Virus record (IMG/VR): IMGVR_UViG_3300037140_000179
Location: 1-39,360 of that record
Strand: one strand, 5' to 3'
Length of the DNA stretch: 39,360 bases
Source: a virus
Shown: positions 14,343 to 32,147 of the stretch, one piece after another
Layout: the number at the start of each line of letters is the position of its first letter
Numbering within the stretch: position 1 is the stretch's first letter
The notes under the pieces: model-generated
Told to the model about the DNA's origin: nothing
What the model saw: the letters and a program-made list of their open reading frames with translations, nothing else
The model's database searches: none
Translations under genes and position numbers: made by a program

Positions 14343-14906
14343 TTACTTAATAGCTTTGTTTACTTTTTTAATAAGTATACCGTTAATCTTCTCTTCTATG
14401 ATCTCATTTTCAAACTCTTCGGGTTTCAACTTTGAACTAATGTTTTCGAGTAACCTTGTTTTACCTTGCATACTCCAGTAAAATGACTTAACTATATCTC
14501 TATTTTTTTCTATCTTAAATAGATTAATTTTTTTTACCTTATATTGTGGTAATCTAATTACCGAAGACTCAACTTCATCTAAAGTTGGTTTATTTATTTT
14601 AATATTACCCTTAGCGTCAGCAATAGAAAACTCAAGCTTCTTTCTCTGCTCTTCTTTGTACTGCGCGTAAAAAATTTCAAAGTCTAATTTGCATTCGCTA
14701 AGTATCTGCTCATACTCAGCTAATAAAATACCTATTCTATTAAGAGCAACTTGACAAGTTATCAATTCTCCCATTATATTATAATGATGAATCTTAGTAA
14801 ACTCATCCATATCACAATCAAGATCAAATTCTTCTATAGAAAGAATTATAATCTTATTTTTTAATTCTACTGTGATTTTTTCTCTATTTTCTTTTTGATT
14901 TTTCAT
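14343..14906 (-). CDS. Hypothetical helical phage protein, 187 aa
   Basis: The protein is largely helical and charged: HYNIMGELITCQVALNRIGI, then a coiled-coil-like EYEQILSECKLDFEIFYAQY. The C-terminal half contains KINKPTLDEVESSV and DIVKSFYWSMQGKTRLLENI. This layout recalls small recombination or replication accessory proteins of phages, but I cannot name it. Its ATG overlaps the stop of the tyrosine recombinase gene (ATGA), so translation of the two is coupled. Confidence 0.65.
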   Translation of the reverse strand: MKNQKENREKITVELKNKIIILSIEEFDLDCDMDEFTKIHHYNIMGELITCQVALNRIGILLAEYEQILSECKLDFEIFYAQYKEEQRKKLEFSIADAKGNIKINKPTLDEVESSVIRLPQYKVKKINLFKIEKNRDIVKSFYWSMQGKTRLLENISSKLKPEEFENEIIEEKINGILIKKVNKAIK

Positions 14907-15724
14907 ATTGGTAGTTTTACTTGATTTAACAATTTTTTAGAGACGTGGCAATATCCTTCAGTTGTCTTAATATCATTATGTCCAGCAATATCTTTAATAA
15001 TTCTTATGTCAACTCCATTCTCAAGAAGATATGTAAAGCAAGAATGCCTAAGGGTGTGAAAAGTAGACTTTTGATTTATCTTATATTTTTTCCAGATCTG
15101 TTGACATGAGCATATAGAGTACTTATCTCCAGCTTTATAACTTTCGAATAGATATATTAAAGGTCTGTATTGCTTATAATATTCTCTAAGTAAAAAAAGA
15201 ATGCTTTGACTTAATGGTACTATCCTATCTTTCTTTCCTTTTGAACAGTTGATCTTTAAAATCATCCTCTTTGAGTCAATGTCTTCGATCTTTAAGTTAA
15301 CTACCTCACTTACTCTTAGCCCACAAGAATATGCTAGCGAGATTATAGCTTTATGCTTTATGTTATCAATCTTACTAATTGACAACATTATTTCATCATG
15401 ATCAATTACCTGCGGAAGTTTAGAAAACTGTTTTGGTCTATCTATCTTATAAAATTTACGCTTTCTATATCTTACTTTTTCATAGTAAAACTTTATTGCA
15501 TTAATTAACCCATTTTGAAATGAATGCGATTTATCTTTACATTCATTTAATACATATTCACATATTTCATTATAAGTGAGATCATCAATTTTTAACTTAA
15601 AGTTATTAATAAACTTACTAAAATCATTTAGATATGAATTACTAGTAGATAAAGCATAATCTCTTAATCTTAGCTTGATGCTAAAGTCATTCATACACTT
15701 CTTAATGAACAATTTTTCTTCCAT
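14903..15724 (-). CDS. Tyrosine recombinase (XerC/D- or integrase-like)
   Basis: The 273-residue protein has a SAM-like core-binding domain (about 1-110) and a catalytic domain. Visible active-site elements are Arg in CGLRVSEV, Lys in SKGKKDR, HTLRH, GHNDIKTT and the likely nucleophile Tyr in EGYCHVS. It is compact, without the extra patch expected in classical integron integrases. It lies directly downstream of the cassette array and is co-oriented with the cassettes, whereas most integron integrases are divergent. Its overlap with the next phage gene suggests it is a settled phage gene. It could act on the array, resolve phage DNA multimers, or integrate. Confidence 0.9.
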   Translation of the reverse strand: MEEKLFIKKCMNDFSIKLRLRDYALSTSNSYLNDFSKFINNFKLKIDDLTYNEICEYVLNECKDKSHSFQNGLINAIKFYYEKVRYRKRKFYKIDRPKQFSKLPQVIDHDEIMLSISKIDNIKHKAIISLAYSCGLRVSEVVNLKIEDIDSKRMILKINCSKGKKDRIVPLSQSILFLLREYYKQYRPLIYLFESYKAGDKYSICSCQQIWKKYKINQKSTFHTLRHSCFTYLLENGVDIRIIKDIAGHNDIKTTEGYCHVSKKLLNQVKLPI

Positions 15725-15782
15725 AGTTGTTTATTTTCAATTAGTTAAGACCTAGTTTTATATATATTAATGTTAGTGGCTA

Positions 15783-15803
15783 TTAAAATTAACTTCATTG
15801 GCG
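15783..15803. repeat. 21-bp inverted repeat, left arm (cassette 4)
   Basis: This arm is the exact reverse complement of 16292-16312. The pair flanks the NlpC/CHAP-like gene just inside the GTTAGTG boxes of its cassette. Together they would bring the two ends of the cassette together in single-stranded DNA or RNA. Confidence 0.8.
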
Positions 15804-15806
15804 TAA

Positions 15807-15817
15807 CAGCCAATACA
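15807..15817. repeat. CAGCCAATACA element, copy 1
   Basis: CAGCCAATACA lies just beyond the 3' end of a cassette gene. Identical copies are at 16461-16471 and 17161-17171, in both cases a few bases after the gene stop. It is usually embedded in a GGCGAACAGCC-like context. It is a shared component of the cassette ends. Confidence 0.7.
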
Positions 15818-15840
15818 CCCAGCCGTTGATTTTTTCAAAA

Positions 15841-16254
15841 TCATTTGTGTTGCTTCCATTTTAAAATAAAATCTGGAGTTGGTAATTCGGAATACTTTCT
15901 AAGCCTGATAATTGTTCCTTGTCCATCTTCCCAACTTACATCTGATACCCAATCATTTCCTTCGTAAACGGCAATGTGCCCATAATCAAATCTTCTAATG
16001 TAAAATATTTTTCCATCTTCTTCTATTCCGTGTGGTTGCCAATATCCATTATTTGCTGCATCATTTTTATGTGTCCATATTATCAAACATCCCTTTTCTG
16101 GAACTTGCAATTTCTGAAACTTATCAGATGTATAAATTTCTTTTGTCGTTGGAGTATCAGTATCCATATTCAAAAGATTCGATAATCCTATTCGCCTAAG
16201 AACATAAGTCTTGCAACTATCCCTATGTGTTATTATTACTTTTTTGAGTTTCAT
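15841..16254 (-). CDS. NlpC/P60- or CHAP-like cysteine peptidase fold protein (cassette gene)
   Basis: The 137-residue protein has CKTYVLRRIG (Cys14 in a helix), VPEKGCLIIWTH near residue 51 and YGHIAVYEGNDWVSDVSW with His93. The order Cys-helix, Gly-x-hydrophobic strand and GHxAVYE matches the papain-like NlpC/P60 and CHAP folds, whose members cut peptidoglycan peptides. Cys14 and His93 would be the catalytic pair. There is no signal peptide or binding domain. As a lone domain in a cassette it could be a lysis factor, an effector or a non-enzymatic relative. It is flanked by 21-bp inverted repeats. Confidence 0.55.
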   Translation of the reverse strand: MKLKKVIITHRDSCKTYVLRRIGLSNLLNMDTDTPTTKEIYTSDKFQKLQVPEKGCLIIWTHKNDAANNGYWQPHGIEEDGKIFYIRRFDYGHIAVYEGNDWVSDVSWEDGQGTIIRLRKYSELPTPDFILKWKQHK

Positions 16255-16291
16255 ATTTTGTTTTTGTTTTAGAGTTTCAATTCAAACAGCC

Positions 16292-16312
16292 CGCCAATGA
16301 AGTTAATTTTAA
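16292..16312. repeat. 21-bp inverted repeat, right arm (cassette 4)
   Basis: This arm is the reverse complement of 15783-15803. It lies in the leader of the NlpC/CHAP-like gene, between its ATG and the attC-like site at 16327-16442. Confidence 0.8.
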
Positions 16313-16326
16313 CAGTTCGCTTCGCC

Positions 16327-16442
16327 CACTAACATATTATTGTAGGCAATTTGGCATTTACTTTTTTATGTTTCATTTGATAAATGCCAAACCAAAATGA
16401 AACATTTTGCACTTCGTGTGCCACAATAATCGGACGTTATGA
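16327..16442 (-). repeat. attC-like site, 116 bp
   Basis: The outer boxes are CACTAAC (16327-16333) and GTTATGA (16436-16442), plus strand. ATTATTGT/ACAATAAT and GGCA/TGCC form the outer stem with one bulged base. TTTGGCATTTA/TAAATGCCAAA and ATGTTTCATTTT/AAAATGAAACAT give alternative inner stems. A 20-base stretch ending in the CACTAAC box (GTTCGCTTCGCCCACTAACA) is identical in the site at 18401-18486. The length resembles long VCR-type attC sites. Confidence 0.6.
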
Positions 16443-16460
16443 GTAATTCCTTTTGCCGAG

Positions 16461-16471
16461 CAGCCAATACA
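16461..16471. repeat. CAGCCAATACA element, copy 2
   Basis: This is identical to 15807-15817 and 17161-17171. It lies one base beyond the stop codon of the 79-residue cassette gene. Confidence 0.7.
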
Positions 16472-16472
16472 T

Positions 16473-16712
16473 TCACTCGCCAAGTTGTTTTAATAGTTCG
16501 TCTGCCATACTAAGAGCGTCTTCGGCAAGTCCGTCAATAATAAGTTGCTTATCCTTATCTTCATATTGCCCACTTGCACACAATCCCTGCATGGCTAATC
16601 CTGCAAAATATTCTCGTTTGTTTATTCCAAACATATTTTGCTCTAACCATTCTTTAGGCATAGCTGTTATTCCTTTCGGTATTCCGAATGCTGGTTTATC
16701 TGCATTTTTCAT
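16473..16712 (-). CDS. Conserved hypothetical protein, 79 aa (cassette gene)
   Basis: The ATG at 16712 gives MKNADKPAFGIPKGITAMPK, then INKREYFAGLAMQGLCASGQ and a helical end ADELLKQLGE. It belongs to a family common in Bacteroidetes genomes, phages and prophages with the core GLTKREYFAAMAMQGL. Its function is unknown. Longer in-frame upstream sequence would run into the preceding gene and is not used. It shares a cassette with the 92-residue gene 25 bases upstream. Confidence 0.7.
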   Translation of the reverse strand: MKNADKPAFGIPKGITAMPKEWLEQNMFGINKREYFAGLAMQGLCASGQYEDKDKQLIIDGLAEDALSMADELLKQLGE

Positions 16713-16737
16713 TTTTATAGTTTTATTAGTTATTGTT

Positions 16738-17016
16738 TCAAATAATACTTTGACTACAAAAATGCTTATATAATTCTGCGGTTGTATAAACATCTTCGCT
16801 TACACAACTTTGCCAGAATTTATATTCTTCTCTTTTTCCATTAGAGATGTAATTGTCATTACAAAAAATGGCGAAGTCTATGGCATCTTGCCTTTCGACT
16901 TCTGAATATACGCCTGCTCGTAAAATAGAATGTTGTATTCCATTCTTAAATTCTGGCAAACAATTTTCATGAGTTGCTTTCAACTCTTCGATTAATTGAC
17001 GTATTGGTGTTTTCAT
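16738..17016 (-). CDS. Hypothetical protein, 92 aa (cassette gene)
   Basis: The start chosen is ATG at 17016, giving MKTPIRQLIEELKATHENCL, then DAIDFAIFCNDNYISNGKRE and a C-terminus AELYKHFCSQSII. The longer frame reading through the attC-like site at its left flank (MLSLFLAGLL) is not credible as protein. The KTPI-x-ELI opening is shared with small accessory proteins of Bacteroidetes phages. The function is unknown. It is the first gene of the cassette that starts with GTTATGC. Confidence 0.6.
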   Translation of the reverse strand: MKTPIRQLIEELKATHENCLPEFKNGIQHSILRAGVYSEVERQDAIDFAIFCNDNYISNGKREEYKFWQSCVSEDVYTTAELYKHFCSQSII

Positions 17017-17069
17017 TTTATATTTATTTTTAAAGTTTCTATTCAACAGCCCCGCTAAAAACAACGAGA

Positions 17070-17132
17070 GCATAACAGCACCTTTGCGCCAGCTTCAAAG
17101 CAAGCCGTTCGCAAAGCTGCGAACCGTTAGTT
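17070..17132 (-). repeat. attC-like site, 63 bp
   Basis: The outer boxes are GCATAAC (17070-17076) and GTTAGTT (17126-17132), plus strand. Inside are AGCTT/AAGCT and a perfect hairpin GTTCGC-aaagct-GCGAAC. The size equals the classical 59-base element. The GCATAAC box matches the GTTATGA box that closes the same cassette at 16436, and the GTTAGTT box matches the AACTAAC box at 17886. Confidence 0.65.
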
Positions 17133-17160
17133 GCCATTTGTATTTGTTTCTTTTGGCGAA

Positions 17161-17171
17161 CAGCCAATACA
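17161..17171. repeat. CAGCCAATACA element, copy 3
   Basis: This is the third identical copy, in the context TTTTGGCGAACAGCC, four bases beyond the stop codon of the 68-residue cassette gene. Confidence 0.7.
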
Positions 17172-17175
17172 AGCA

Positions 17176-17382
17176 TCACTTAATTACATTATTTCTGATT
17201 ATTACATTTCCGTTTTTTATTCCTTCGCTATGAAATTTCATCGCTTCTCTCCAACCATTTCTAAGTCCGATTTCGTACCCTTCGGATAATTTATGTCCTA
17301 AATTGGCTGCTGCTTTTTGATGTTCTTTAACGATTTCTTCTATTCTGAAATCTGGATTTGTGCAAAATGATAGTGTTTTCAT
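17176..17382 (-). CDS. Hypothetical protein, 68 aa (cassette gene)
   Basis: The protein reads MKTLSFCTNPDFRIEEIVKE, a helical middle KAAANLGHKLSEGYEIGLRN, and a C-terminus ending VIIRNNVIK. No motif is recognised. It is the last gene of a multi-gene cassette and starts 15 bases after the ribbon-helix-helix gene, so it may form a functional pair with it. That pairing is inference. Confidence 0.6.
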   Translation of the reverse strand: MKTLSFCTNPDFRIEEIVKEHQKAAANLGHKLSEGYEIGLRNGWREAMKFHSEGIKNGNVIIRNNVIK

Positions 17383-17397
17383 ATTGATTTTTCATAT

Positions 17398-17556
17398 TTA
17401 TTTGTGAGTTAGGTGTTTTTTTAATACCGTAACAATATAGTTGCTGATGTTTCTATCTTGTTTTTTAGCATCCTCCATTATTTTACTAAATAAGTCATTA
17501 GGGATTCTAATCGTAGTCATTTTTGATTCCGATTTTAAATGATTTTCTTTTTCCAT
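17398..17556 (-). CDS. Ribbon-helix-helix DNA-binding protein, 52 aa
   Basis: The short frame reads MEKENHLKSESKMTTIRIPN, then DLFSKIMEDAKKQDRNISNY and IVTVLKKHLTHK. A strand (MTTIRIP), a helix, the polar turn KKQDRNIS and a second helix form the Arc/MetJ/CopG fold, which binds DNA as a dimer through the strand. Such proteins are often antitoxins or plasmid and cassette regulators. It lies 3 bases after the 62-residue gene and 15 bases before the 68-residue gene, so a toxin-antitoxin-like unit is possible, though no known toxin is recognised beside it. Confidence 0.75.
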   Translation of the reverse strand: MEKENHLKSESKMTTIRIPNDLFSKIMEDAKKQDRNISNYIVTVLKKHLTHK

Positions 17557-17559
17557 ATA

Positions 17560-17748
17560 TTAGTACTCGACTACTATTAATTTCTTATGCTTATCTTCCT
17601 TATACATATATTGATGAAAATATCCTTCGTCAATATCTTTCTGAGCTTTGTCTTTATCGTAAAATCCATTCGCCCATAATTCATTTTCAGCACCTTCTGT
17701 AACTACTTTATATAGTCCGCGTATTTTTTCTTTTGTTTGTTTTTTCAT
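17560..17748 (-). CDS. Hypothetical protein, 62 aa (cassette gene)
   Basis: The protein is MKKQTKEKIRGLYKVVTEGA, then ENELWANGFYDKDKAQKDID, and ends KHKKLIVVEY. It is a small alpha/beta protein of mixed charge. The beginning and the strand-like end LIVVEY suggest a compact fold. No family is recognised. Its stop is 3 bases before the ribbon-helix-helix gene start, so the two are coupled. Confidence 0.6.
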   Translation of the reverse strand: MKKQTKEKIRGLYKVVTEGAENELWANGFYDKDKAQKDIDEGYFHQYMYKEDKHKKLIVVEY

Positions 17749-17749
17749 A

Positions 17750-17826
17750 TTAAGATTGTATTTGTTTTATTTCTTTTCTTACGTCATTCCAGTATATTAT
17801 TGCTTCATCATAAATTCTTTTTCCAT
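17750..17826 (-). pseudogene. Remnant of a small YWxxVRKEI-type gene, frameshifted
   Basis: From the ATG at 17826 the frame gives MEK and then stops early. Adding one A to the run of five As after MEK (GGAAAAAG) restores 25 residues, MEKRIYDEAIIYWNDVRKEI then KQIQS, ending in TAA at 17750-17752. The end resembles the C-terminus of a phage family whose members finish YW-x-x-VK-x-EI. It is probably the decayed first gene of this cassette. A homopolymer error is possible. Confidence 0.4.
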
Positions 17827-17885
17827 TTTTTTTGAGTTTTTAATTGGTTTATATTTCTTATTTAACAGCCGTGCCAAAAACCTAA

Positions 17886-17942
17886 AACTAACATTGTGTT
17901 TAATGCCATTAAGAACGCGGCATAAACACTTTGCCGTTAGTG
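17886..17942 (-). repeat. attC-like site, 57 bp
   Basis: The boxes are AACTAAC (17886-17892) and GTTAGTG (17936-17942), plus strand. GTGTTTAATGCC (17896-17907) pairs with GGCATAAACAC (17919-17929), leaving a single bulged base. The length and the asymmetric bulge are typical of attC. AACTAAC matches the GTTAGTT box at 17126, and GTTAGTG matches the CACTAAC box at 18401. Confidence 0.7.
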
Positions 17943-17946
17943 GCAA

Positions 17947-17969
17947 TTAAATATTTTAAATTAATTTTT
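17947..17969. repeat. 23-bp inverted repeat, left arm (cassette 1)
   Basis: This arm is the exact reverse complement of 18364-18386. It starts at the GTTAGTGGCAA end box and runs over the stop codon of the nucleotidyltransferase-like gene. Confidence 0.8.
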
Positions 17970-18359
17970 CCCACCGCACGGTAAAATTGAAATATCAATA
18001 TAATATTGCGGGTCTTGGTGTTCAATAAATTCCGTAACCATTCCACCGTATTTAGTTTTGATTGTCCTGTTAATATTCACTACCCAACAATCTCTACCGT
18101 GCAATTTATTTCGTAGTAATTGGCGTTGTTCATCTGCTTCAATTAAAATACTTCCTCCAAGCGTTTCGGCTATCTCATTAAGCATTTCTACCTTATCGCC
18201 AATTACTTCTTGCCACGGTATAGCAATTAAATCTAAATCCCTATTCATTGAGCCGTGTAGCACAATATTGTATCCATATTTCAATCCTATTTCCTTTATT
18301 ACTTCAAAGTAAAACCCGTATAGGCTCGGTCTTGCGTGTATTGGTTTATTTTCTGCCAT
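17961..18359 (-). CDS. Nucleotidyltransferase-fold protein, 132 aa (cassette gene)
   Basis: The protein contains LHGSMNRDLDLIAIPW near residue 34: a Gly-Ser followed by spaced aspartates (D-x-D), the metal-binding signature of the polymerase-beta nucleotidyltransferase superfamily. The rest is a single small domain with WVVNINRTIKTKYGG and ends YYIDISILPCGGKN. Similar short proteins are common in phages and gene cassettes and are often annotated only as nucleotidyltransferases. The target is unknown. It is the only gene in a cassette that has 23-bp inverted repeats at its ends. Confidence 0.65.
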   Translation of the reverse strand: MAENKPIHARPSLYGFYFEVIKEIGLKYGYNIVLHGSMNRDLDLIAIPWQEVIGDKVEMLNEIAETLGGSILIEADEQRQLLRNKLHGRDCWVVNINRTIKTKYGGMVTEFIEHQDPQYYIDISILPCGGKN

Positions 18360-18363
18360 CTCT

Positions 18364-18386
18364 AAAAATTAATTTAAAATATTTAA
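18364..18386. repeat. 23-bp inverted repeat, right arm (cassette 1)
   Basis: This arm is the reverse complement of 17947-17969. It lies a few bases upstream of the nucleotidyltransferase-like ATG. Confidence 0.8.
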
Positions 18387-18400
18387 CTGTTCGCTTCGCC

Positions 18401-18486
18401 CACTAACACCGCACTTGTCGCCATGCGGATTTGCGGGAACTGACTTTTTTATATCCGCACATCGCAAGTGCGCGGTGCGTTAAATA
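18401..18486 (-). repeat. attC-like site, 86 bp, GC-rich
   Basis: The boxes are CACTAAC (18401-18407) and GTTAAATA (18479-18486), plus strand. ACCGCACTTG pairs with CAAGTGCGCGGT with a two-base bulge, and ATGCGGAT with ATCCGCACAT in the inner stem. The GC content is clearly higher than in the surrounding phage sequence. Confidence 0.65.
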
Positions 18487-18515
18487 ATATTTTACTTCGT
18501 AGATCATTATTTAAC
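18479..18515. repeat. Gene-less mini cassette or array edge, 37 bp
   Basis: GTTAAATAAT (18479-18488) and ATTATTTAAC (18506-18515) are perfect inverted ends separated by 17 bases, and carry the same GTTA/TAAC boxes as the cassettes. It could be an empty cassette remnant or the attI-like edge where the array meets core phage sequence. Confidence 0.45.
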
Positions 18516-18523
18516 AATTTACA

Positions 18524-18550
18524 CAAATGAAATTTTTCAAACTTCATTTG
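18524..18550 (-). terminator. Hairpin directly after the FEN-like gene
   Basis: CAAATGAA (18524-18531) and TTCATTTG (18543-18550) form a perfect 8-bp stem with an 11-base loop, one base beyond the stop codon of the nuclease gene. No long T-run follows on the minus strand, so it is a weak or mRNA-stabilising terminator at most. It marks the end of core phage sequence before the cassette array. Confidence 0.45.
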
Positions 18551-18551
18551 A

Positions 18552-27303: not shown

Positions 27304-27362
27304 ACAAATATATAATGTTTTATTTAAAGTAAAATGCTTTTATTTAAAAACTTATTAACAAA
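27304..27362 (-). promoter_or_regulatory. Repeated 59-bp phage promoter, copy 2
   Basis: This block matches 14283-14341 at 57 of 59 positions, from TTTGTTAATAAG to the -7 box TATATTTG (27305-27312). The methyltransferase ATG is about 17 bases downstream. It separates the polymerase gene from the modification-like operon and should drive that operon. Confidence 0.7.
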
Positions 27363-30867: not shown

Positions 30868-30887
30868 AAAAAACGCGCTTTCGCGTT
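30868..30887 (-). terminator. Intrinsic terminator or attenuator before dnaE
   Basis: On the minus strand AACGCG-aaag-CGCGTT is followed directly by TTTT. The dnaE ATG begins 13 bases after the T-run. Because no promoter is seen between the hairpin and the ATG, polymerase expression would depend on read-through, or the hairpin may act as an attenuator. Confidence 0.65.
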
Positions 30888-30889
30888 AA

Positions 30890-31000
30890 TTTCTTTCTTT
30901 CTTTTCTTTCTTATCTTTCTTTTCTTTATTATCTTTCTTATATTATTGCCTTTAGAGTGACTTCAGTTTGCCCTCAAAGTGACTTCAGCCTTTACTTCAG
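30890..31000 (-). repeat. Degenerate 20-bp tandem repeats and purine tract after the replication gene
   Basis: TGCCTTTAGAGTGACTTCAG (30947-30966) and TGCCCTCAAAGTGACTTCAG (30969-30988) are 20-base units, and a third shortened copy (GCCTTTACTTCAG) covers the stop codon of the 114-residue gene. A GAAA/GATAA-rich tract follows on the minus strand to about 30890. Replication proteins of this type often carry KGTxKGT repeats and a Lys/Asp-rich tail, so this looks like a decayed coding tail. Confidence 0.55.
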
Positions 31001-31336
31001 TGTGCCTTTTAATTGGTACTTTTCATAATTAATCACAGTTAGTCTTGTTGTATATTTGAGCCCTTCTAATTTAATCATATCATCATTTTCAAGCAATTTA
31101 AAAAATGTTCTAACTTTTTTTTCTGTCCAATTTGTACCAAATTCATTAGCCCACGTTTTAATACTAAAAACATTTTGCCCTCTTTTACATTCAATAATTT
31201 CTCCTTTTATTAATGTTTTGTTATCTTTGAAATTAACATTAAATAATATTTGAACCCACGCTTTAAAATAAATAGCATCTGAAAATATCCAATGATTAAT
31301 AATCGGTCTATGAATTGTTATCCAACCTAAGCACAT
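30992..31336 (-). CDS. Winged-helix phage replication protein (replisome-organiser-like), short
   Basis: The 114 residues match the N-terminal domain of phage replisome organisers and DnaD-like initiators: GWITIHRPIINHWIF, then KRGQNVFSIKTWANEFGTNW, then a final strand LTVINYEKYQ. The winged helix would bind origin or forked DNA and help load the DnaB-like helicase encoded nearby. Family members usually continue with a variable tail; here a TAA after KGTLK cuts it off, and decayed tail-like repeats follow. It overlaps the 46-residue gene before it by 10 bases. Confidence 0.7.
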   Translation of the reverse strand: MCLGWITIHRPIINHWIFSDAIYFKAWVQILFNVNFKDNKTLIKGEIIECKRGQNVFSIKTWANEFGTNWTEKKVRTFFKLLENDDMIKLEGLKYTTRLTVINYEKYQLKGTLK

Positions 31337-31467
31337 TGTTTCTTGTTAAAATATTGCCTTATAAATGAATAGAGAAATCCATAATCTTTACAAACAATTA
31401 TGCCATCTTTAATAGTATTTGACTCAATAACTATAAAAGGATAATCGAATGATAAAACTTTTGCCAT
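31327..31467 (-). CDS. Small protein, 46 aa
   Basis: The ATG at 31467 opens MAKVLSFDYPFIVIESNTIK, then DGIIVCKDYGFLYSFIRQYF and NKKQCA, ending in TAG at 31327-31329 inside the next gene start. The mix of strands and a helix looks protein-like. It is the first gene after the candidate structured RNA at 31484-31606, so the RNA may control it and the replication gene behind it. The function is unknown. Confidence 0.6.
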   Translation of the reverse strand: MAKVLSFDYPFIVIESNTIKDGIIVCKDYGFLYSFIRQYFNKKQCA

Positions 31468-31483
31468 AATTTTATTTTTTTAA

Positions 31484-31606
31484 AAAGCCTCCGCCTAAGG
31501 AGAGTGTGTCGGACAAGGACTACATCTATATTTCTATAGACGAGAACTGCTCCTTAGGTTTTGGCTTTATCTTAATTTTTTTTTCATCTGAGTCCCTGTC
31601 CTTTGA
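31484..31606 (-). ncRNA. Candidate pseudoknotted structured RNA or 5' leader
   Basis: Minus-strand order: helix a strand GGACAGGGAC (31601-31592), AAAGCC (31568-31563), CCTAAGGAG (31558-31550), hairpin TCTATA-gaaa-TATAGA (31540-31525), GTCCTTGTCC (31520-31511) closing helix a, CTCCTTAGG (31502-31494) and GGCTTT (31489-31484). Helix a (10 bp, one G-U) and helix b (9+6 bp around an internal loop) interlock, which is a pseudoknot. The last strand runs into TTTTT, as in a terminator. The -7 box ends five bases before the predicted RNA. No known class is recognised. Confidence 0.6.
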
Positions 31607-31610
31607 TTTA

Positions 31611-31658
31611 CAAATATACAAACAATATCATATAGTAGACTCAAACTTATTAACAAAA
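31611..31658 (-). promoter_or_regulatory. Promoter before the structured RNA
   Basis: TATATTTG (31611-31618) lies 27 bases downstream of GTTAATAAG, the same pairing and nearly the same spacing as at 1774-1803. GTTAATAAG overlaps the double stop of the 165-residue gene. Transcription would start around 31605, right at the first paired base of the RNA. Confidence 0.65.
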
Positions 31659-32147
31659 TAACTTATCAAATATCCTACTCACAACATCAAACTTTACTTC
31701 ATTAAATACTCCACTAAGCTTATCATCACACTCAATAACTAAATCTTCTGTAGGCACATTGATACTTCTTATCTTACCTTTTCTTTGTCTACCCGCTTCA
31801 TCAATTATGTTTACTTCGCAACCTATAGCAAAATAATTTTTTGCATCCCAATATTGCTGATTTCGTTTTACTTTTTCATTAGAATAATAAAAGTTAGGCA
31901 ACCCATAATCATTAAAGATCTTCTTTTCATACAATTTAAGTATCTCTTCAGCATCAAAAATAGAAAGTTGCTTAAGTTTATGCTTTAAATGACATATCTT
32001 TTCTTTTTTATGCTCAGCAGTTCCTGACCAAAAGTCTTTATGTTTCTTAATAGGATATATTTTTGCTCTTAAAATACACACTATATATTCTTGCTGTAAA
32101 ACTTCAAAAAGTTTTTGTGATGAAAGTTCTTGCGTCGAAATATTCAT
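31650..32147 (-). CDS. Hypothetical protein, 165 aa
   Basis: The N-terminal two thirds are helical and charged (KHKKEKICHLKHKLKQL). The end looks like a small SH3- or KOW-like beta domain (YFAIGCEVNIIDEAGRQRKG, then EDLVIECDD). No motif is recognised. It overlaps the 82-residue gene before it by 4 bases and ends at a tandem TAA TAA inside a promoter element. Its place after primase and helicase suggests a replication accessory role, not shown by sequence. Confidence 0.6.
   Translation of the reverse strand: MNISTQELSSQKLFEVLQQEYIVCILRAKIYPIKKHKDFWSGTAEHKKEKICHLKHKLKQLSIFDAEEILKLYEKKIFNDYGLPNFYYSNEKVKRNQQYWDAKNYFAIGCEVNIIDEAGRQRKGKIRSINVPTEDLVIECDDKLSGVFNEVKFDVVSRIFDKLFC

Follow-up and report, generated by a model that had tools for sequence, protein, structure and literature searches.

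What kind of element occupies the 182-nt intergenic gap at positions 31468-31649 of a phage genome in which the median gap is 2 nt? The window analyzed here is the whole of the 39,360-base virus record IMGVR_UViG_3300037140_000179 of IMG/VR; all of its assigned genes lie on the minus strand, and its hosts are Bacteroidota-type bacteria. The gap is bordered by a 165-amino-acid (aa) open reading frame (ORF; 31650-32147) and by a 46-aa one (ORF46; 31327-31467), and it houses a predicted pseudoknotted RNA read on the minus strand, in the same direction as the genes, with a G+C content of 41% versus 26-28% in the surroundings. Judged from its sequence, this promoter-proximal, strand-specific pseudoknotted RNA without known relatives is real.

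With respect to the fold, a preliminary description of the locus had proposed two long helices that interlock around a GAAA-capped hairpin, with the final strand entering a T-run, and we find all of these parts (minus strand throughout). P1 pairs GGACAGGGACU (31591-31601) with AGUCCUUGUCC (31511-31521) and comprises 11 bp including one G-U. P2 consists of 6 outer bp between AAAGCC (31563-31568) and GGCUUU (31484-31489), a symmetric 4x4 internal loop (AAAA/CGGA), and 9 inner bp between CCUAAGGAG (31550-31558) and CUCCUUAGG (31494-31502), with the outer 3′ strand leading into a run of five U. P3 is a hairpin of 8 bp, one of them G-U, capped by GAAA (31523-31542). The strand order is P1a-P2a-P3-P1b-P2b, with only 8 nt (GACACACU) between P1b and P2b, and P1 and P2 are predicted to interlock as a true pseudoknot. 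Two observations favor the minus strand: read from the plus strand, the G-U pairs of P1 and P3 would turn into A-C mismatches, and the fold is weaker (z −2.15). A tetraloop-receptor contact between the GAAA loop and CCUAAG was also considered and dropped, since CCUAAG is wholly paired in P2.

The RNA was said to lie directly behind a promoter, and this is borne out by a TATATTTG box at 31611-31618 (minus strand), of the Bacteroidota −7 type TAnnTTTG, which is backed by a second element, TTGTTAATAAGT (31645-31656, minus strand), 26 nt upstream of the box at 31618. Exact copies of TTGTTAATAAGT at 27361, 14340 and 1820 precede further intergenic TATATTTG boxes (27312, 14291 and 1781, respectively), and, since TTGTTAATAAGT is common to four TATATTTG sites, the promoter is a member of a family in this phage. 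Among the four copies on the minus strand (1820, 14340, 27361 and 31656), TATATTTG follows 26-37 nt on, a spacing that varies by about one helical turn. Transcription is predicted to start at about 31607-31604, so that P1 would begin some 4-6 nt later. The other leaders read behind this promoter family are short, compared with ∼138 nt for that of ORF46, nearly all of which is taken up by the structure: this begins a few nucleotides past the predicted start and leaves 17 nt free ahead of the ORF46 start codon.

Which gene the RNA precedes was addressed with a start-site profile built on 46 gene starts of the window, in which A stands at −3 in 31 of the 46 and no Shine-Dalgarno signal is seen. 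Such an A-rich start pattern without a Shine-Dalgarno sequence has been described for Flavobacterium (PMC6847099), and the ORF46 start, with A at −3, −6, −12 and −13, matches it. Among the gene starts its context ranks at the 85th percentile, a level reached by only 1.2% of all ATGs. The short leader ORF of the preliminary description, MKKKLR, is indeed present (31567-31587, minus strand; ATG at 31587), and its start is not a plausible one: in this sequence test its context scores −6.6, below every one of the 46 gene starts (mean, +2.1), and we judge it to be probably not translated. For this reason the idea of a leader-peptide attenuator was set aside, and we treat ORF46, with its high start score, as the gene that directly follows the RNA.

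ORF46 itself encodes an orphan protein, with no relatives in any search made, including one with ORF46 peptides against IMG/VR; its AlphaFold model is of low confidence (pLDDT 61) and was not used. It is followed by a 114-aa gene (30992-31336, minus strand; phrog_2514, E = 1.7e-24) whose product resembles DnaD-like helicase loaders and replisome organizers over their N-terminal part, a full-length relative having 275 aa and a C-terminal domain. After the stop of this gene come degenerate, iteron-like direct repeats with a TGACTTCAG core (30946-31015, minus strand), a period-9 pyrimidine tract on the plus strand that is purine-rich in the minus-strand transcript (30894-30944), a good intrinsic terminator (AACGCG-AAAG-CGCGTT followed by T4; 30872-30887, minus strand), and then the DNA polymerase gene. 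The stretch at 30872-31336, with its truncated replisome-organizer gene, repeats, pyrimidine tract and terminator, is a candidate replication origin, and we infer this function from its resemblance to phage origins. In phage SPP1 (PMC6316719), the origin sits within the replisome-organizer gene (gp38), and a replisome-organizer-like DNA-binding domain, direct repeats and an A/T-rich tract at the gene are shared with the module described here. The domain is cut to 114 aa in our phage, however, with the repeats at and behind the stop codon, and the description of SPP1 used for this comparison mentions no counterpart of the leader RNA.

We observe that Chryseobacterium phage MA9V-3, which is syntenic, and several IMG/VR relatives keep the helicase, the primase and the 165-aa ORF, and are at the same place without the RNA, ORF46 or the DnaD-like gene; after the 165-aa ORF, they go on to other genes or almost straight to the polymerase. 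We regard the module formed by the RNA, ORF46 and the DnaD-like gene as a lineage-specific addition. As a separate observation on the polymerase, phage BS-TP1 and scaffold MT835494 (L006, 11614-16056, and L007, 12223-17574) carry a polymerase III alpha gene that is split in two, with other sequence in between, which in BS-TP1 holds a Dda-like helicase gene.

The RNA had been called unassigned, and our searches agree: Rfam 15 assigns no family in the window at the gathering cutoff, and the sole hit at E up to 5, to UPD-PKc, covers the promoter and is spurious (20.7 bits versus a cutoff of 40). A BLASTN search of phage and plasmid sequences with the RNA gave chance matches only, all of them short. 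In IMG/VR, no close relative came up with peptides of the primase and the polymerase, an alignment of the helicase yielded 62 loci of which none has the RNA, and six loci with a homologue of the 165-aa ORF, read or mapped, have no such module at this place. Patterns made from the RNA returned 11 unrelated palindromes with a 44-nt span (P2), two chance matches that are both coding (P1) and no match at all (3′ part) in the same database; these negatives are to be read as coming from scans that may leave out records very near the window. The helicase had no match in the genome collection, where the DnaD-like protein found one distant Geomicrobium locus; two DnaD-like relatives (L083 and L084) have no such RNA upstream as judged by eye. 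A single-sequence covariance model run on 47 whole related records scored 20.8 bits at best, at a site without the helices.

The reading that we favor, and to which we give about an even chance on sequence grounds, is that the RNA would be a cis-acting 5′ leader, either operator or attenuator, of a small replication operon. The RNA is flanked by a promoter that recurs in the phage and by the ORF46 start codon, and the unit behind it holds two genes with origin-like repeats and ends in a terminator. Furthermore, a terminator-like hairpin, UCUCC-UUAGGC-GGAGG followed by CUUUUU (31482-31503, minus strand), uses bases of P2, so that P2 and this hairpin exclude each other. In 126-nt prefixes that end at the U-run, the nested optimum is P1 plus P3 plus the terminator-like hairpin (−30.9); for longer RNA it is P2 plus P3 (−32.4 for the 141-nt stretch), and the two folds thus compete at nearly equal energy. 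The hairpin itself (−5.5 kcal/mol) is nearly as stable as the terminator that the phage has at 30887 (−6.6), though it is short, with 5 pairs and U5, and a scan gives 6 such sites in 12 kb versus 3.7 by chance. A riboswitch or an attenuator for the replication gene had been among the options first listed, and this option fits the anatomy best, as the leader of a replisome-organizer-like gene in which P2 opposes a terminator-like hairpin; its weak side is the terminator, at a frequency near that of chance. Against the cis-leader reading stand the lack of any homologue in our searches and the fact that ORF46 and the initiator gene could also be reached by read-through from the upstream helicase operon.

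During transcription, P1 and P3 would form first. The 3′ strand of P2 could then find its partner in the loop of P1, which would complete the pseudoknot and let the polymerase continue into ORF46, or it could fold into the local five-pair hairpin, which with the U-run would end the transcript. Since the two states exclude each other, the pseudoknot could act as an antiterminator, and the level of ORF46/initiator mRNA would be set by a ligand that favors one state, be it a protein (for instance one of phage replication) or another molecule. Alternatively, since the structure ends 17 nt short of the ORF46 start codon, translation might be the target of the same contacts, as it is for T4 gene 32; in the P2 fold this codon is not clearly occluded.

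The translational operator of gene 32 in T4 and RB69 (PMC535899) is likewise a replication-linked 5′-terminal pseudoknot in a phage mRNA leader, from which an unstructured A/U-rich stretch with UUAAA/UAAA units runs into the start codon, and this layout, a 5′-terminal pseudoknot beside an unstructured A/U-rich ribosome site, is predicted here as well. The T4 pseudoknot measures ∼28 nt, however, versus ∼118 nt with an extra hairpin here, and the downstream gene is not a recognizable single-strand binding protein. UUAAA-like sequences are commonplace in a phage as A/U-rich as this one. Transcription attenuators and riboswitches with a pseudoknotted aptamer, such as the preQ1 family (reviewed in PMC11625349), similarly place a mutually exclusive pseudoknot and terminator-like hairpin before the first gene, but unlike these, the present RNA has no Rfam match, no metabolic gene downstream, a weak terminator and no known ligand. 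A bolder version of the cis-leader reading, in which the RNA would stand for a hitherto undescribed class of pseudoknotted control RNAs in phages, with a pseudoknot/terminator switch that couples expression of the origin module to the state of the replication machinery, seems to us speculative and rather unlikely. All parts, from the promoter and the fold to the start codon and the origin-like module, lie inside 800 bases, and, if the RNA is a switch, the locus would show how such a phage could time its own replication at the RNA level. To our knowledge, structured control RNAs have been little described in Bacteroidota phages.

The main rival to a cis-acting leader, itself unlikely though a serious contender, is an independent small phage RNA of ∼120-126 nt that would end at the U-run and have its target in trans, such as a protein or RNA of the host. 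Such an RNA would have its own promoter and a compact fold with the raised G+C content given above, and P2 plus the U-run would serve as its own terminator, AAAGCC...GGCUUUUU resembling a terminator stem and tail. As a terminator, however, P2 would have an unusually large loop that encloses a hairpin, the promoterless interval to the next gene, which has a strong start, is only 17 nt long, and no relative is found in other phages.

We consider it improbable that the RNA is merely a stabilizer of the 5′ end, with P1 locking the first nucleotides of the mRNA in a pseudoknot that protects it from decay and with no switching. The onset of P1 within ∼4-6 nt of the predicted start and the high stability of the helices would suit this role, for which a simple hairpin would nevertheless suffice; neither the interlocking nor the mutually exclusive hairpin would be needed. 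Hardly likely, too, is an element that acts at the DNA level, in which a protein at a replication origin would bind to interlocked inverted repeats. The adjoining origin-like module, with its DnaD-like domain, direct repeats and pyrimidine tract, speaks for it, yet the origin-like repeats are 500 nt off, the G-U pairs of P1 and P3 count as regular pairs only if the RNA is read from the minus strand, a symmetric 4x4 internal loop interrupts P2, and the inverted repeats are not iterations of one site.

The pairing had also been described as far beyond chance, and the statistics uphold this. The interlocked pair formed by P1 and the inner part of P2 has a summed stacking energy of −39.5 kcal/mol, a two-helix score that leaves out the outer part of P2 and P3. 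None of 1,000 dinucleotide shuffles of the 140-nt region matches this value (mean, −19.4; SD, 3.6; best, −29.6), and the pair is the top interlocked one on both strands of the whole window, by 7.5 kcal/mol; it also ranks first among the 879 stretches that follow a TAnnTTTG box, whether in the window or in its relatives. The per-strand best of 100 simulated 39-kb strands of local composition averages −31.6, and none of the 100 reaches −39.5. Taken by itself, the nested fold stands out less (z −3.0; about rank 64 of 1,961 windows). That two long interlocking helices arose by chance is very unlikely, and we give little credence to a chance pairing without function: a reader could point to the lack of homologues and to the choice of the element from the whole window, with the extreme of the simulated strands coming near at −39.2, but neither the shuffles nor the simulated strands attain a score that already omits two parts of the fold, and the element runs exactly from promoter to start codon.

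Least probable of all, and barely credible, is the self-processing RNA that had been listed as an option, here as a self-cleaving ribozyme of HDV-like topology, although an HDV fold stripped of P4 would have the same strand order, P1a-P2a-P3-P1b-P2b. The HDV consensus has a 7-bp P1 that starts from the cleavage site, a short P3 closed by the L3 loop, and P1.1. Here, P1 has 11 bp, and P3, with 8 bp and a GAAA cap, leaves no L3 loop to form P1.1; the 8 nt of GACACACU stand in place of P1.1-P4-J4/2, with no P4 possible, and Rfam gives no ribozyme match at E up to 5. The HDV-like and theta ribozymes of gut phages (PMC10879173), in which the C of J4/2 is catalytic, share the strand order and the occurrence in phages, but differ in helix lengths, L3/P1.1, P4 and J4/2; the window contains no tRNA.

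An integron attC site was tested because the 6+4x4+9 stem of P2 recalls attC and because the phage has an integron-like array. It was rejected: the R boxes RYYYAAC/GTTRRRY are absent, the sole AAC and the sole GTT of the element flank no stem, and the outer pairs of P2 are AAAGCC/GGCTTT. The integron-like array itself lies at 14903-18551 (minus strand) and has a tyrosine recombinase beside small, mostly orphan ORFs. The recombinase matches Phage_integrase (1.4e-33), with XerA/integron integrase as the best model, and scores 149.9 bits against the NCBIfam integron integrase, below the cutoff of 265. The ORFs of the array are parted by long structured gaps with attC-like sites, such as CACTAAC-GTGTTTA-TAAACAC-GTTAGTT at 17942-17886, and GTTAGTGGGCGAAGCGAAC repeats occur in the array at 16308 and 18382. 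The gap at 18360-18551 (minus strand) is strongly folded (z −3.6; 0 of 200 shuffles as stable) and is probably an attC-like site.
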